Positions 58,306 through 64,000 of a DNA stretch of 64,000 bases are shown piece by piece. Under the pieces are notes generated by a model. It was given only the letters and a program-made list of their open reading frames with translations. It was not told the origin of the DNA and made no database searches. The stretch is from contig JAOPKE010000005.1 in the NCBI GenBank assembly GCA_025517465.1, forward strand, positions 62,001 through 126,000, given 5' to 3'. The stretch is from Halobacteria archaeon HArc-gm2. Its GTDB lineage: Archaea > Halobacteriota > Halobacteria > Halobacteriales > Haloarculaceae. Each line of letters starts with the position of its first letter. Position 1 is the stretch's first letter. The position numbers were made by a program, and so were the translations under genes.

Positions 58306-60078
58306 CTACAGCACGAACCGCTCGAAGCCGGCCTCCCGGACCGACCCGTCGGCCAGGCGCTCTCGGGCCAGTTCGACGGACGTAAAGAATCGGCAGGTGA
58401 TCGCGTCGTCCTCACGGGGGTCCTCGACGACGAAGGCGGCGCCGTCCTCGAGCGCGGTCGACTGCTCGATGGACCGCTCCGTCGCCGCGTCGGGGTCGAA
58501 GCCGGACTCGCGGTGTCGTTCGAGTCCCTCCTCTGAGAGCAGGAGCAGCCACTCCCCGTCGCCGACCTCGACGTGCGTCCCCGAGGAACTCTGGTCCGTG
58601 ATCTGCCACTCCTTGCCGCTCTCGTCGAACGTGACTCTCGCGTGGACCGGTTCGACGTGTGCGTCGGTCGCGACGTCGAGCGCGAGGTCGGGGCGCTGGT
58701 CCGCCTCGGCGTCCCGTCCGACGGTGGTGTCGCCGGCGATTTCGTACACCGTCCCCTCGCTCGGGACGGCGAGTGCTGCCGTCGGCGCCCCGCTACCGAG
58801 CGAGACAACGTCGACGTCGTGGGCCGGACTCCCGGACGCGCCCGGGTCAGCGGCGCTCTCCGGGTCGTCGGACTCGCCTGTGGACCCGGTCCCGTCGGTC
58901 TCGGCCTCGGTCGCGCCGGTGGAACTCGTTTCCTGTCCAGTCGACGCTGGTGGGTCGGGGGGGTCGTCGCCGGCCGAGCCGCCCGTTTCCGACCCGTCGC
59001 TACTCGCGTCTGCCTGCGTCGAGTCACTCCCGTCGCTGTCCTCGCTCCCGTCGTCGTCCGCGCCGCCGTCGTCGGCCGGCTCGATGACCGTCTCGGCCCG
59101 GGAGACCATCGACTCCGGCGTCGGCCGGGCGTTCGGATCCTGGGCGAGCGTGATCGAGATGTTGTCCTTCCCGCCGCGCTCGTTGGCGAACGCGACCAGG
59201 TCCGTCACGGCGCCGTGCAGGTCCTCGGCGCCGAGAACGAGTTCCATAATCTCGTCTTCCGTGACCAGGGTGTCACGGATCTTCTCACAGACCGACTCGG
59301 TGTCCTCGGCCCGCTCGTACTCCCTGCGGAGCGGCCTGACGTCCGGGTAGGCGTCGATGAGGCCGTCGCTGGTGAGCATGACGACGTCCTCGCGGAAGAC
59401 GTCCGTCGTCCCGAACTCGACGTCGACGCTCGGTTTCCCGGCGCTGGATCCGCCGACGGCGTTGGTGATGGCGGTGGCGTCCTCGTGGACGCGGGCGTAG
59501 GCCTCGTCCTCGATCTCGCCCCGTTTCAGCCGGACGTTGGTGACGGCGTGGTCCTCTGTCAGCTGTCTGATCGTCCCGCGTTTCGTGTTGACGACGTAGA
59601 GGCGGCTGTCGCCGACCCAGCCGTAGTGGAGTTTCCCGTCGGCGTACACCGCGACGACGACCGTCGTCGCTGGCTGACCGCCGATGGCCGAGGCGTACTC
59701 CTGGATCTTCCGGTGGGCGGCGTCGACGCTGTCCTTGATCGCACTCCGGATCCGTCCCTCGGAGAGGACCGCGCGTGGATCCTCGTCGACCGTGGGCGGG
59801 TCCGCGGGGTAGGCGTCGATGCCGAACCGCTCCAGGACGTCCGTCGCCGACCCCTGGAGGCGCTCGGTCAGTCGCTTGCGGACGATCGAGGTGACCAGGA
59901 ACGACGCGACGTCGCCGCTGGCCTCACCTCCCACGCCGTCCGCGAGCACGAAGACGCCGACAGACCGGCCCGTCTCCCGGTGGTGATTCTCCAGGACCGC
60001 CGAGGCCACGCTGTCCTCGTTGATCCCGCCGCTCCCTCGCTTTCGTGCGCCGACGTCGACGCTGCTGGCGTGTTCCAT
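58306..60078 (-). CDS. PP2C-type protein phosphatase with C-terminal FHA domain
   Basis: 590 aa. The PP2C domain (about 1-275) has all metal-binding motifs: GINEDS, VFVLADGVGGEASGD, GWVGDSRLYV, LTEDHA, MLTSDGLIDAY and GGKDNISITLA. A long Ser/Asp/Thr/Gly-rich linker (about 290-410) leads to an FHA domain (about 430-590) with TVGRDAE, EPVHARVTF and SSSGTHVEV. After the FHA SGT strand it has EWLLLLSEEGLERHRE and further strands, a tail shared with the kinase next door. Predicted to dephosphorylate Ser/Thr and bind phosphothreonine partners. It starts 2 bp after the kinase stop. Confidence 0.92.
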   Translation of the reverse strand: MEHASSVDVGARKRGSGGINEDSVASAVLENHHRETGRSVGVFVLADGVGGEASGDVASFLVTSIVRKRLTERLQGSATDVLERFGIDAYPADPPTVDEDPRAVLSEGRIRSAIKDSVDAAHRKIQEYASAIGGQPATTVVVAVYADGKLHYGWVGDSRLYVVNTKRGTIRQLTEDHAVTNVRLKRGEIEDEAYARVHEDATAITNAVGGSSAGKPSVDVEFGTTDVFREDVVMLTSDGLIDAYPDVRPLRREYERAEDTESVCEKIRDTLVTEDEIMELVLGAEDLHGAVTDLVAFANERGGKDNISITLAQDPNARPTPESMVSRAETVIEPADDGGADDDGSEDSDGSDSTQADASSDGSETGGSAGDDPPDPPASTGQETSSTGATEAETDGTGSTGESDDPESAADPGASGSPAHDVDVVSLGSGAPTAALAVPSEGTVYEIAGDTTVGRDAEADQRPDLALDVATDAHVEPVHARVTFDESGKEWQITDQSSSGTHVEVGDGEWLLLLSEEGLERHRESGFDPDAATERSIEQSTALEDGAAFVVEDPREDDAITCRFFTSVELARERLADGSVREAGFERFVL

Positions 60079-60080
60079 GG

Positions 60081-61334
60081 TCACTGGCTGAATCGGAAGT
60101 AGAATCGCTCGGGGTAGCTCGGGCTGACCAGCGCGACGACGTCGCCGGGCTCCAGTGCGGCGCTGGCGTCCGGGTCGCTGGGGATCGATTCGCCGGCCTG
60201 GCGCTGGCGCTCCCGTCCCGTCTCGGAGAGCAACAGTCGCCACTCCTGTTCGTCGTGTTTGCTGATGTAGGTCCCGTTGAGGCTGGTGTCGACGACCCGC
60301 CAGCCGCCGTCCTCGTCGGTGACGAAGCGGCAGTGGACCGCTGACAGGGCCGTGTGCCGGCCGTCGGCGAGCATGATCGAGGGCCGCGGTCCGTCCTCGG
60401 TCTTTCGGCCGATGGTGTCGCCGGGGCTGATCCGCCACTTCTCGCCGCGACCGAGCCACTCGAGGGTGGCCTGCGAGGGCATCGTCGCGTCCCGGTCCTC
60501 GAGAGCGGTCTTGAGCATCGAGGCGTTGGAGTACCGGTCGGCGTGGTCGTGCTGGGTCGCGTTCCTGACGATCTCGTCGAGATAGTCGGCGCCGTCGACG
60601 CCGAACTGACTGGGGGCGACGCTGTCGTCGTCTGGTACCCACCCCACCTGGAGAAAGCACAGCAGCTTCCCGATGGAGTAGACGTCGCTCCAGGGCCCCT
60701 GGCGCTGCTCGGCGTCGCGGTTCAGCTCCGGCGGCTTGAACTCGCCCGGCACCGTCGAGTCGCCGGTCGAGCCCTGGACTGGCTGGGAGGTGACGTTACC
60801 CGTGAACGAGGGGATGTCGTCGCTCGTGACGGTGCCCTTCGCCGTCGTGAAGTCCAGTAGCTTCGGATCCCTGTCCCCGTTCAGCATGATGTTGTCGGGC
60901 TTCAGGTCGCGATAGATGATGTCGTGGTCGTGGAGGAAGGAAAGGGCGTCACAGATCCCGATCCCGATCTCGCGGACCTCGTCGGGGTCAGTGATCGGCC
61001 CGTCCTCGCGCACGACCTCGCCGAGTTCGGCGCCCTCGATGAGTTCGACGACCAGGAACGGCATTCCGAAGCCTTCCTCCCGGCCGTAGTAGCTCATGAT
61101 GTTGTCGTGCTCGCCGGCCTCGCGGATCTCCTCGAGGATGTCCGTCTCGCGCTCGAAGTACTTCTCGACGAGTTCGTCCGGCGTCGACCCCTCGTAGTTG
61201 GGGTGTTTCAGCGCGACCATGCCACCGCTCTCGCGGTCGTCGGCGCTCCACACGACGCCGAACCCGCCGCGACCGATCTCTTCGCGCAACACGTACCGGT
61301 CGGCGAGTTCGTCGCCAGGGGACGGTTCGGACAT
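60081..61334 (-). CDS. Ser/Thr protein kinase with C-terminal FHA domain
   Basis: 417 aa. The kinase domain (about 10-265): glycine loop EEIGRGGFGVVW, ATP Lys in VALKHP, a Glu helix RETDILEEI, catalytic loop IIYRDLKPDNIM, metal-binding loop LLDFTTAKGT and GEFKPPEL as APE equivalent. HRD is YRD and DFG is DFT; both catalytic Asp are kept. An FHA domain follows (about 290-417: DTIGRKTED, SAVHCRFV, SLNGTYI), with the extended tail EWRLLLSETGRERQRQ also found in the phosphatase. The ATG at 61334 is closest to the fold; in-frame ATGs at 61355 and 61388 are alternatives. Confidence 0.92.
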   Translation of the reverse strand: MSEPSPGDELADRYVLREEIGRGGFGVVWSADDRESGGMVALKHPNYEGSTPDELVEKYFERETDILEEIREAGEHDNIMSYYGREEGFGMPFLVVELIEGAELGEVVREDGPITDPDEVREIGIGICDALSFLHDHDIIYRDLKPDNIMLNGDRDPKLLDFTTAKGTVTSDDIPSFTGNVTSQPVQGSTGDSTVPGEFKPPELNRDAEQRQGPWSDVYSIGKLLCFLQVGWVPDDDSVAPSQFGVDGADYLDEIVRNATQHDHADRYSNASMLKTALEDRDATMPSQATLEWLGRGEKWRISPGDTIGRKTEDGPRPSIMLADGRHTALSAVHCRFVTDEDGGWRVVDTSLNGTYISKHDEQEWRLLLSETGRERQRQAGESIPSDPDASAALEPGDVVALVSPSYPERFYFRFSQ

Positions 61335-61444
61335 GGGACGTGATACCTCAGACATCCTCACAGCCGACGGTGAGTCGTCGGCACACACTCCTCGCGGCGT
61401 GGGCTCGATCGCCGCCGCTCCTCATCGCGGCGACGACTGGTCCG

Positions 61445-62647
61445 CTAGTACTCATCGGGGTCGTAGACGCCGGTGGTGTTCTCCTTGACCTGCCGGGCCT
61501 GGCTCTCGTCGCCCTCCTCGATGCGAGTGACGTTCTCGTGGAGGGCGTCGGCGATCTCCGTCTCGCCCGTGATGACCTCGGTCTCGTCGATCTTGGCCTT
61601 GACCGCCTCCAGTTCGTCCTGGGAGTCGGCGTGGGCGATCCGCGTCCGGAGGTCGGTGTCGTAGTAGGCGACGGTGACGTCCTCGTCGTGGACGGACAGC
61701 TCTGACTCGTCGTCCGAGTAGGTGACGGCGATTTCGGTCTCGGCCGAGTTCGACCCCGCCTCCAGGGTCACGTCGACGAGCGTCTCCTCGGTCCCGACGT
61801 CGTTCGGCGGCGCGTCCATCTCCAGGACGACCTGCTGTTCCTCCCGGTCCTGGAGGTCCGGGAGACCGATGATCGTCTTCCCTTCCTCGTGTTCGAGCGG
61901 GATCTTCTGGACCTGCGGGAGCCGCCGGAACGCCTGTCCAATCTCGCAGCCGTCGACGGTCTCGAGGACGAGTTCGGGGTTGTTCGAGAGGACGGTCGAG
62001 GCCTCCTGGACGACGTCGCCGAAGAACGACCGGATGTCTGCCGGGTTCTCGACGTGGGCCCACCGGCCCTGGGAGAACTCGCCGAGGCTGCGGATGGTGT
62101 CCTGGCCGTAGTTCGTCCCGAGGCCGGCCGAGTAGATGGAGATGCCGGCGTCGGTCAGGTCCTGGGCGAGCGGTTCGAAGTCGGCGGCCGACGCCCGGGT
62201 GTCCCGCCCGTCCGAGAGCAGCAGGACGCGCTTGGAGATGGACTCGCCGCGCTCCAGCCCCGAGAGGATGCCTTCGGCCTCTTCGAGCGCGGAGTAGATG
62301 TCCGTTCCGCCCGTCGTCGTTATCTCCTGGAGGCGCTCTTCGGCCTCCTCGCGTTCGATGTCACCCCACCGCGTCGCGTCCATGACCACCTCGATGTCCT
62401 CGTCGAAGGTGACGATGCTCAGGTAGTCGTCGTCGTTGAGGATACCGAAGACCAGCTCCGTCGCGTCGCGGGCGTGGTCCAGCTTGTCGTCGTAGGCCAT
62501 GGACCCGCTGCTGTCGATACACAGCGCGATGTGGCGCTCCGCGGCCTGCCCCTGTGCCTGCGGTGTGATGTCCAGCTCACAGGTGATCCCCCCACCCGAC
62601 TCCGGAACGTACGGTCGATTTACAGTCGCGGAAATCTCGGTCGGCAT
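61445..62647 (-). CDS. von Willebrand factor A domain protein
   Basis: 400 aa. The vWA domain (about 38-225) has a complete MIDAS: DSSGSMAYDDKL (DxSxS), the Thr in TTTGGTDIYS, and LLSDGRDTRAS. N-terminal strands (EISATVNRPYVPESGG) and a C-terminal beta-rich part plus a helical tail (LEAVKAKIDETEVITGETEIADALHEN). No signal or membrane segment, so it is cytosolic. It sits between the zinc-ribbon FHA protein and the kinase, 110 bp before the latter. In TerY-type systems such a protein partners a kinase and PP2C. Confidence 0.93.
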   Translation of the reverse strand: MPTEISATVNRPYVPESGGGITCELDITPQAQGQAAERHIALCIDSSGSMAYDDKLDHARDATELVFGILNDDDYLSIVTFDEDIEVVMDATRWGDIEREEAEERLQEITTTGGTDIYSALEEAEGILSGLERGESISKRVLLLSDGRDTRASAADFEPLAQDLTDAGISIYSAGLGTNYGQDTIRSLGEFSQGRWAHVENPADIRSFFGDVVQEASTVLSNNPELVLETVDGCEIGQAFRRLPQVQKIPLEHEEGKTIIGLPDLQDREEQQVVLEMDAPPNDVGTEETLVDVTLEAGSNSAETEIAVTYSDDESELSVHDEDVTVAYYDTDLRTRIAHADSQDELEAVKAKIDETEVITGETEIADALHENVTRIEEGDESQARQVKENTTGVYDPDEY

Positions 62648-62784
62648 GCTCCTATCTGGCAACGCTTTCGGAGATAAATTTAACGGATATTGATAATTGG
62701 TTTAGATATTCGACGCGCGTCTACGTCCCGTCCGGCGATCCGGACGAGTGTGCCACGTCCATTCGGCGGTGACCGGGTCGGATC

Positions 62785-63657
62785 TCAGAACTGGACCTCG
62801 ACCTCGGCCCGTCCGGCGAGCGTGAGGAAGTCCCCGTCGGAGACCTGTTCGGTCCCGCCCTCCATCTTCGTGGAGTTCAGGAGCGTGCCGTTCCGGCTCA
62901 CGTCGGTCACGTAGACGCCGTCGTCCTCGATAGAGAACTCGACGTGCTCGCTGGAGATGTAGGAGAGCGCGTCCGAACCGCCGCCCGCGACGACGAGGTC
63001 CTCGAGCCACTCCTCGTCCTCCCTGCCGAAGGTGTCGCCGTCCCCGAAGGTGTAGGACTCGCCGTTGACGACGAGGGTAATCTCTTCGGGCACCGATTCT
63101 GCGTCCTCGGAGTCCGGCGACTCGACGTCCGTCTGTGCATCTTCGGTTCCAGCGTCCTGCGTCTCTGCCTCGGCGGCCGTCGCGTCGTCGTCCGTCGCCG
63201 CGTCATCGCTTGCGGCCTCGGCACTGTCGGCGTCGGCCACCACAGTCGGTTCGTCCTCGGGCCCGTCTGCCGTCTCGTCGGCCTCGATCGCCGTGCCGCA
63301 ATCGGGACAGTACGACGCGTCGGCGGCGACGGTCCGCCCGCAGTCCGAGCACTCCGTCGTGTCCGACGACGCGCTCTCCGCACCGATCGCCGCGCCGCAC
63401 TCACGGCAGTACGACGGTGCCGCTCCGTCGTCGGACGAGGCCGTCGCCTCCTCGTCGGCCGGTTCGGTCGCCTCGGTTTCCGTCTCCTCGGCCTCGATCT
63501 CGTCGTCTCCCGTTTCCTCGGCGTCGTCCGCGTCGTCGGCCTCGCCGTGCTCGAAGTCCGGGTGAGGCGTGTCGCAGTCGGGACAGAACCCGCCGGTCGG
63601 TGCTGGGTCGAACGCCGTCTCGCACGAAACACACGCCAGTTCGGATTGATCGGACAT
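62785..63657 (-). CDS. Zinc-ribbon and FHA domain protein
   Basis: 290 aa. The N-terminus has a CxxC pair set (LACVSCETAF...GFCPDCDTPHP), then an acidic linker, a second zinc-ribbon unit YCRECGAAIG...ECSDCGRTV and a third YCPDCGTAI. A long acidic Ala/Asp/Glu/Thr linker (about 130-200) with many Thr could be phosphorylated. The canonical FHA domain is C-terminal: TFGREDEEW, ISSEHVEFSI, DVSRNGTLL. First gene of the phospho-signalling operon, 137 bp before the vWA gene; probably the adaptor substrate, like Fha proteins in bacteria. Confidence 0.9.
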   Translation of the reverse strand: MSDQSELACVSCETAFDPAPTGGFCPDCDTPHPDFEHGEADDADDAEETGDDEIEAEETETEATEPADEEATASSDDGAAPSYCRECGAAIGAESASSDTTECSDCGRTVAADASYCPDCGTAIEADETADGPEDEPTVVADADSAEAASDDAATDDDATAAEAETQDAGTEDAQTDVESPDSEDAESVPEEITLVVNGESYTFGDGDTFGREDEEWLEDLVVAGGGSDALSYISSEHVEFSIEDDGVYVTDVSRNGTLLNSTKMEGGTEQVSDGDFLTLAGRAEVEVQF

Positions 63658-63863: not shown

Positions 63864-64000
63864 ATGATTCACGTGCGCTCCGCGAAACGAACGCTGACGG
63901 CACAGGCCACCATCGCCTTCCTCGAGTTACTCGTGGGGCTATCCGCGATTCTCGCGACGGTTGCCGTCCTTCTGGTGGCTGCGGTGGCCGTCCACGCTAT
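63864..64000 (+). CDS. Membrane protein, N-terminal fragment (runs off the window)
   Basis: The first 45 residues begin MIHVRSAKRTLTAQA and continue as a hydrophobic segment (AFLELLVGLSAILATVAVLLVAAVAVHA). The gene continues beyond the window. It is divergent from the phospho-signalling operon with a 206 bp gap and shares its intergenic region. The Lys/Arg-rich start before the helix suggests an internal N-terminus. Family cannot be assigned. Confidence 0.65.
   Translation, partial: MIHVRSAKRTLTAQATIAFLELLVGLSAILATVAVLLVAAVAVHA

Follow-up and report, generated by a model that had tools for sequence, protein, structure and literature searches.

The window analysed here, a stretch of 64,000 nucleotides from a haloarchaeal genome of 4.25 Mb (G000:C14:62001-126000), contains a cassette of four genes that spans positions 58306-63657, as the initial annotation had stated, and lies entirely on the minus strand. 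In the order in which they are read, these genes encode an ArnA-like protein of 290 aa that combines zinc ribbons with an FHA domain (ZnR-FHA protein, 62785..63657, −), an ArnB-like vWA protein of 400 aa (61445..62647, −, with its ATG at 62647), a Hanks-type Ser/Thr kinase of 417 aa with a C-terminal FHA domain (60081..61334, −), and a PP2C phosphatase of 590 aa with a degenerate C-terminal FHA domain (58306..60078, −). Each call is based on an open reading frame and Pfam, together with alignment for the ZnR-FHA protein, kinase and phosphatase and with profile and fold matches for the vWA protein. Pfam finds FHA in three of the four proteins, along with Pkinase (9e-30), PP2C_2 (1e-12), VWA (2e-18) and a double zinc ribbon. 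Homologues support a kinase start at the ATG at 61334 rather than at the upstream GTG at 61388, with the stop at 60081. The genes are separated by 137, 110 and 2 bp, the last being the distance from the kinase stop to the PP2C gene that had been reported. A fifth component, TMZn, was absent from the four genes first annotated. This membrane partner, which bears a conserved Thr motif of its own, is encoded divergently from the ZnR-FHA gene by an open reading frame that starts on the plus strand (63864..64000 in the window) and continues to contig position C14:127408 (L005:10865-12409). The nearest neighbours, named from reading their translations, are UbiB-, HSP20-, eIF5A- and agmatinase-like genes.

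The cassette is present in 33 of 242 Halobacteria genomes, distributed over 12 genera and 3 families, as judged from a kinase search in which scores and loci were inspected. Neighbourhoods of 20 kb were read from most of the 12 genera and from six named contigs. Nearly all of these loci have the order vWA-kinase-PP2C, with a few bases to about 140 between genes; the exceptions are rearranged loci in G234 and in Halorubrum (L012) and one contig edge. Chance falls far short of explaining an arrangement whose order and spacing are repeated across 12 genera; the co-occurrence of the four genes, whose conservation the initial annotation had left to be checked in haloarchaeal genomes, holds. Two layouts exist. 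Type I, found in the window and in Natrinema, Halovivax and Halobiforma, runs ZnR-FHA - vWA - kinase - PP2C, while type II runs vWA - kinase - PP2C - ZnR-FHA - TMZn. In the kinase tree the types form separate groups (type I at 100/99), and the window genome has one copy of each. Its type II copy lies on contig C13 (L006:3358-9418; G000:C13:249357-255417) and comprises vWA, kinase, a PP2C without FHA, ZnR-FHA and TMZn genes; two adjacent PH-like membrane proteins are encoded upstream of it.

Within the window's genus, only two of five sampled genomes (G000 and G138) carry type I; its other occurrences are in Natrialbaceae-type genomes, a distribution that suggests horizontal transfer or differential loss. 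Outside the class, a sample of 295 genomes of the phylum yielded no cassette-like kinase and one weak match to the kinase domain. A wider scan for related loci returned, beyond the first six, mostly unrelated bacterial kinases. One haloarchaeal cassette contig (L007, PWPN01000083.1), with a kinase 69% identical, is binned in a Phycisphaerae MAG and is probably contamination.

Catalytic and MIDAS residues are intact in the window proteins and in nearly all homologues. The kinase retains its P-loop, Lys, YRDLKPDN and DFT motifs, and its C-terminal FHA domain is canonical (G-R, S-A-V-H, N-G-T). The phosphatase keeps NED, DGVGG, SDGL and GGKDN together with the metal-binding Asp residues; its FHA domain in the window preserves G-R, but neither the Ser of S-x-x-H nor the Asn of N-G remains. 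FHA domains had been claimed for three proteins, and the claim stands for the ZnR-FHA protein and the kinase, both canonical, with the phosphatase domain degenerate. The conserved active-site residues and the FHA domains are consistent with the proposed reading of writer, eraser and reader. Directly past the PP2C catalytic domain, an acidic or Ser residue is followed by T-x-[ILMV] in 29 of 31 proteins; most homologues have the acidic form, [DE]Tx[ILMV]. In the window this site reads ETVIE (59080..59094, −, from the homologue alignment), and its Thr, T330, is a candidate phosphosite.

The ZnR-FHA protein is built of an N-terminal zinc ribbon, an acidic linker, a double zinc ribbon and a C-terminal FHA domain. 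This FHA domain is canonical in the window (G-R, S-S-E-H, N-G-T), and its best PDB profile matches include Rad53 FHA1 and GarA. ArnA itself is matched weakly in the profile search, via a zinc ribbon. With an N-terminal zinc finger and a C-terminal FHA domain encoded beside a vWA gene, the protein has the layout of ArnA plus extra ribbons. Type I proteins keep the residues of the FHA phosphothreonine pocket. In type II (e.g. L006:4665-5738) this pocket is lost, SxxH being replaced by HREH and NGT mostly by NPT, and the kinase's own FHA is therefore the only possible reader there. Most Natrialbaceae-type cassettes contain a further, divergent kinase-FHA gene after PP2C (L008:13045-14265, L009:13018-14295, L119, L120). 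Its product has HLDxxPSN or HLDLKPxN as catalytic loop and DLN in place of DFG, and is possibly a pseudokinase.

The vWA protein possesses the intact MIDAS that had been ascribed to it, with DSSGS (D45, S47, S49), T115 and D146. Its vWA domain is inserted in a split beta-sandwich and is followed by a helical bundle, the composition of the ArnB module, and then by a disordered tail. By sequence profile, its best PDB relatives include ArnB of Sulfolobus (8s05_A, E=1.4e-15) and ArnE (5a8j). An AF2 model of middling quality (pLDDT 70.6) matches 4fx5, 8s05 (E=8e-24, TM 0.65-0.70), 5a8j and Sec23/24 in Foldseek. Judged by profile and predicted fold, this is an ArnB-type, Sec23/24-like three-domain protein and not a bare vWA domain; an ArnB-like structure in Halorubrum has been mentioned (PMC12852372). 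A conserved Thr motif sits in the tail, beyond the helical domain. In the window it is TTGVYDP (61457..61477, −, from the homologue alignment). The majority of type I homologues have TTVV[YF]D, and type II proteins have ATxIVxD. Of 23 distinct tails, 18 conform to T-x-[IV]-[FYV]; among the most divergent proteins the motif is weak. The tail threonines, T391/T392 in the window protein, are a second candidate phosphosite.

TMZn has 514 aa, comprising about six TM helices, a linker of 260 aa rich in Ser, Thr and Asp, and a C-terminal zinc ribbon. Its membrane domain belongs to no family in Pfam or NCBIfam, and AF2 modelling of three sequences reached a pLDDT of 51. TMZn homologues adjoin the cassette in both layouts, and their membrane domains can be matched between types I and II (hhalign 98.8%, over 55 columns). 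In G041, G059 and G114, TMZn is found about 180 kb from the cassette with its motif kept (TRVYDPD or TRVYDPDN); in G199 the ZnR-FHA gene is the displaced one, by about 70 kb. The linkers are hypervariable, and yet T-x-[IV]-[FY] is present in all 22 of them, against 0.63 expected from shuffled linkers. It mostly takes the form T-R-[IV]-[FY], a short distance ahead of the ribbon, and reads QTRIYTP in the window. Thr motif and zinc-binding tail together look like an address on which the module acts. The initial annotation had named the Thr-rich linkers of the FHA proteins as candidate substrates. Those linkers as such are unconserved; the conserved elements are the short Thr motifs of the vWA tail, of TMZn and of the segment past the PP2C catalytic domain.

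The same combination recurs on other proteins. Near divergent cassettes (G229, G174, G112 and Halorubrum ezzemoulense L012), many unrelated proteins end in the motif, a short spacer and a zinc ribbon, with N-terminal parts consisting of PQQ beta-propellers, cold-shock domains, HEAT repeats, pentapeptide repeats or DUF7343 (wHTH-like). A DnaJ-like membrane protein near such cassettes has the motif, but its Cys motifs are internal. A motif no more than 70 residues upstream of a C-terminal zinc ribbon occurs in 40 of 60 cassette-linked ORFs, versus 0 of 23 that are unlinked or from cassette-free genomes. A tag profile (A1) was made from 18 tails, all from cassette-linked loci and none from G041, G059, G114, G028, G143, G052, G167, G071, G101 or G112, and was searched against the 242 genomes with matches required to include the motif at E<=1e-8. 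It matches 20 genomes, namely 19 of the 33 with a cassette and 1 of the 209 without (Fisher 2e-18, a value that overstates independence because the genomes are related). Twelve of the 14 cassette genomes lacking a match belong to one genus; loci were read in four of them, and all four have the motif with a score below the cut. The tag was undetected in G199 and G234 despite their cassettes.

Around divergent cassettes, islands of up to about 20 proteins carry the motif-plus-ribbon tail or the ribbon alone (L133, L137, L204 and L205 at G229:C1:2382-2428 kb; L136 and L206 at G174:C5:169-193 kb). Many of their members are PQQ beta-propellers; paired cold-shock domains and HEAT repeats are also found. 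Genome G072, a draft of 120 contigs, encodes tagged cold-shock and beta-propeller proteins (L252-L254; C84, C13), and the cassette kinase was not found in it, which reflects either loss or a gap in the draft.

These features can be combined into a model that we consider probable, in which the locus encodes a reversible phosphothreonine switch, complete in itself, by which an ArnAB-like complex would form on partners bearing the tag, in this case TMZn. The kinase would write on the Thr of T-x-[IV]-hydrophobic motifs in the vWA tail, past the PP2C catalytic domain and in the TMZn linker. These marks would be read by the kinase's own FHA domain and, in type I, also by that of the ZnR-FHA protein; in type II the kinase FHA would be the sole reader, a difference between the types that can be tested. 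The vWA protein would be the docking site for the zinc ribbons of the ZnR-FHA protein and of the partner's tail, in the way that ArnB receives the ArnA zinc finger. Removal of the marks by PP2C would cause the complex to fall apart. The outcome would be that the vWA/FHA complex is reversibly recruited to proteins with the tag, presumably one membrane protein here, with TMZn as the output in the window organism, and many soluble proteins in some other genera. Precedent comes from Sulfolobus, where the ArnA zinc finger docks on the beta-sandwich and helical domain of ArnB, and the ArnA FHA domain binds threonines in the ArnB helical domain that are phosphorylated by ArnC, with the SIETT site of ArnB taking part in this binding (PMC12852372). 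By analogy, the Thr motifs of the cassette resemble this site and the vicinal-Thr ETTS site of GarA (PMC12321487). Weighed against the switch are the shortness of the motif, its weakness on the most divergent vWA tails, the pocket loss in type II ZnR-FHA proteins, the middling vWA model, the relatedness of the genomes behind the co-occurrence, the cassette-linked origin of all A1 rows, and the exceptions G072, G199 and G234.

A broader model is more tentative, and we regard it as possible without favouring it. A portable two-part C-terminal tag, formed by a T-x-[IV]-[FY] phosphothreonine motif and a zinc ribbon, may place unrelated haloarchaeal proteins under one kinase-phosphatase-FHA-vWA module, with the ArnAB-like complex as the receiver of the tag. 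Its hosts comprise membrane proteins, beta-propellers, and cold-shock, HEAT, pentapeptide and wHTH-like proteins.

The main alternative to phosphosite reading is that T-x-[IV]-[FY] serves as a constitutive docking peptide, for example by beta-augmentation on the vWA or FHA domain, and provides a fixed scaffold address while the kinase acts on other sites. In the tag alignment, positions +2 and +3 share the conservation of the Thr, and the motif and zinc ribbon come together, both of which suit such a peptide; the Thr itself is invariant in the same alignment and the +1 residue varies, which does not. Furthermore, the vWA tail and PP2C carry related Thr motifs of a kind suited to FHA binding, and kinase, phosphatase and FHA domains are encoded together. 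We hold this alternative to be unlikely. Somewhat less plausible still is a role as the haloarchaeal version of the archaellum regulatory network of Sulfolobus, in which ArnA/ArnB-like proteins would repress motility genes and have a kinase and a phosphatase of their own. The vWA and ZnR-FHA proteins fit the ArnA-ArnB architecture, and archaellin genes lie about 10 kb from the cassette in two related genomes, G028 (C1:2494-2498 kb) and G143 (C1:2442-2446 kb). Against it, of 35 genomes in which no cassette was detected, 28 have archaellin, the archaellin matches of the window genome are on another contig, and Sulfolobus encodes ArnC and ArnD elsewhere and uses PP2A as its eraser. Two genomes, G224 and G229, have the cassette without archaellin, and archaellum control as the sole role was rejected on this ground.

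The enzyme classes of the cassette, vWA, PP2C and Ser/Thr kinase encoded together, are also those of the TerY-P triad, with which the initial annotation had matched it. A role as such a triad, or as a related stress or anti-phage defence system, would agree with the patchy distribution and with the PADLOC matches of the kinase to the PD-T4-6 and MAD6 defence kinase models. These models are generic kinase models, the other components have no match, and the candidacy as a defence system was rejected accordingly. TerY-P kinases end in a zinc ribbon or OB fold (PMC11090510), whereas the cassette kinase ends in FHA; its vWA protein, which has no PADLOC match as a TerY-like protein, is ArnB-type with beta-sandwich and helical bundle; and no ter, restriction or CoCoNuT context was seen. 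TerD is absent from the genome and the local neighbourhood contains no secretion gene, in agreement with the earlier remark that neither ter nor secretion genes are near. The match to the triad is thus not borne out, and we hold this reading to be quite improbable. Least credible is a regulator of ESCRT-type membrane machinery, despite the known haloarchaeal Halo_FHA ESCRT loci, where FHA, kinase and phosphatase genes likewise occur together (PMC10936438), and despite a partner, TMZn, that is a membrane protein. Vps4_C and Snf7 are unmatched in the window genome and near the cassette in 14 genomes, the Snf7 model being weak on archaeal proteins. The FHA domain occupies the extreme C-terminus with no CdvA-like domain beyond it, N-terminal zinc ribbons replacing that domain. 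Assignment to the Halo_FHA ESCRT loci was rejected, neither Vps4 nor Snf7 having been found near the cassette.

A literature search found no paper that describes the haloarchaeal cassette, its membrane partner or the tag. If the phosphothreonine switch is correct, Halobacteria would possess a compact circuit of writer, reader and eraser whose candidate substrates and sites can be named, so that archaeal phosphothreonine signalling would be open to direct tests. The ArnAB/Sec23-24-like scaffold would then reach past Sulfolobus motility, and the findings suggest that archaea have a modular tag by which proteins are addressed for phosphorylation.

A comparison with known systems places ArnA-ArnB of Sulfolobus (PDB 8s05, 5a8i, 5a8j), by sequence profile and predicted fold, as the closest experimentally studied relative. 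Both place a protein of zinc finger and FHA domain next to a vWA protein of three domains. In Sulfolobus, the docking of the zinc finger and an FHA binding that depends on phosphorylation have been demonstrated (PMC12852372). Unlike ArnA-ArnB, the cassette encodes its own kinase, which has an FHA domain, and its own eraser, which is a PP2C; it adds extra zinc ribbons and a tagged membrane partner, and its tie to the archaellum is not obligate, given G224 and G229. Since kinase and phosphatase differ and that tie is not obligate, membership of the Arn family proper is not claimed. The type VI PpkA-PppA-Fha system, whose logic the initial annotation had invoked, shares kinase, PP2C and FHA; the cassette adds vWA and zinc ribbons with no secretion gene nearby, and its 25.3 bits against the TagH/Fha model TIGR03354 fall far under the cut-off of 120.25, so this likeness does not extend to the family. 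Actinobacterial GarA/OdhI is related by FHA profile, and its vicinal-Thr ETTS is comparable to the TTVVY/TTGVY and TSVF of the cassette proteins; the T-S-V-F of some tags also resembles the residues that follow in GarA. GarA holds motif and FHA in one chain, whereas the cassette distributes its motifs over several partners and, on TMZn, joins the motif to a zinc ribbon.
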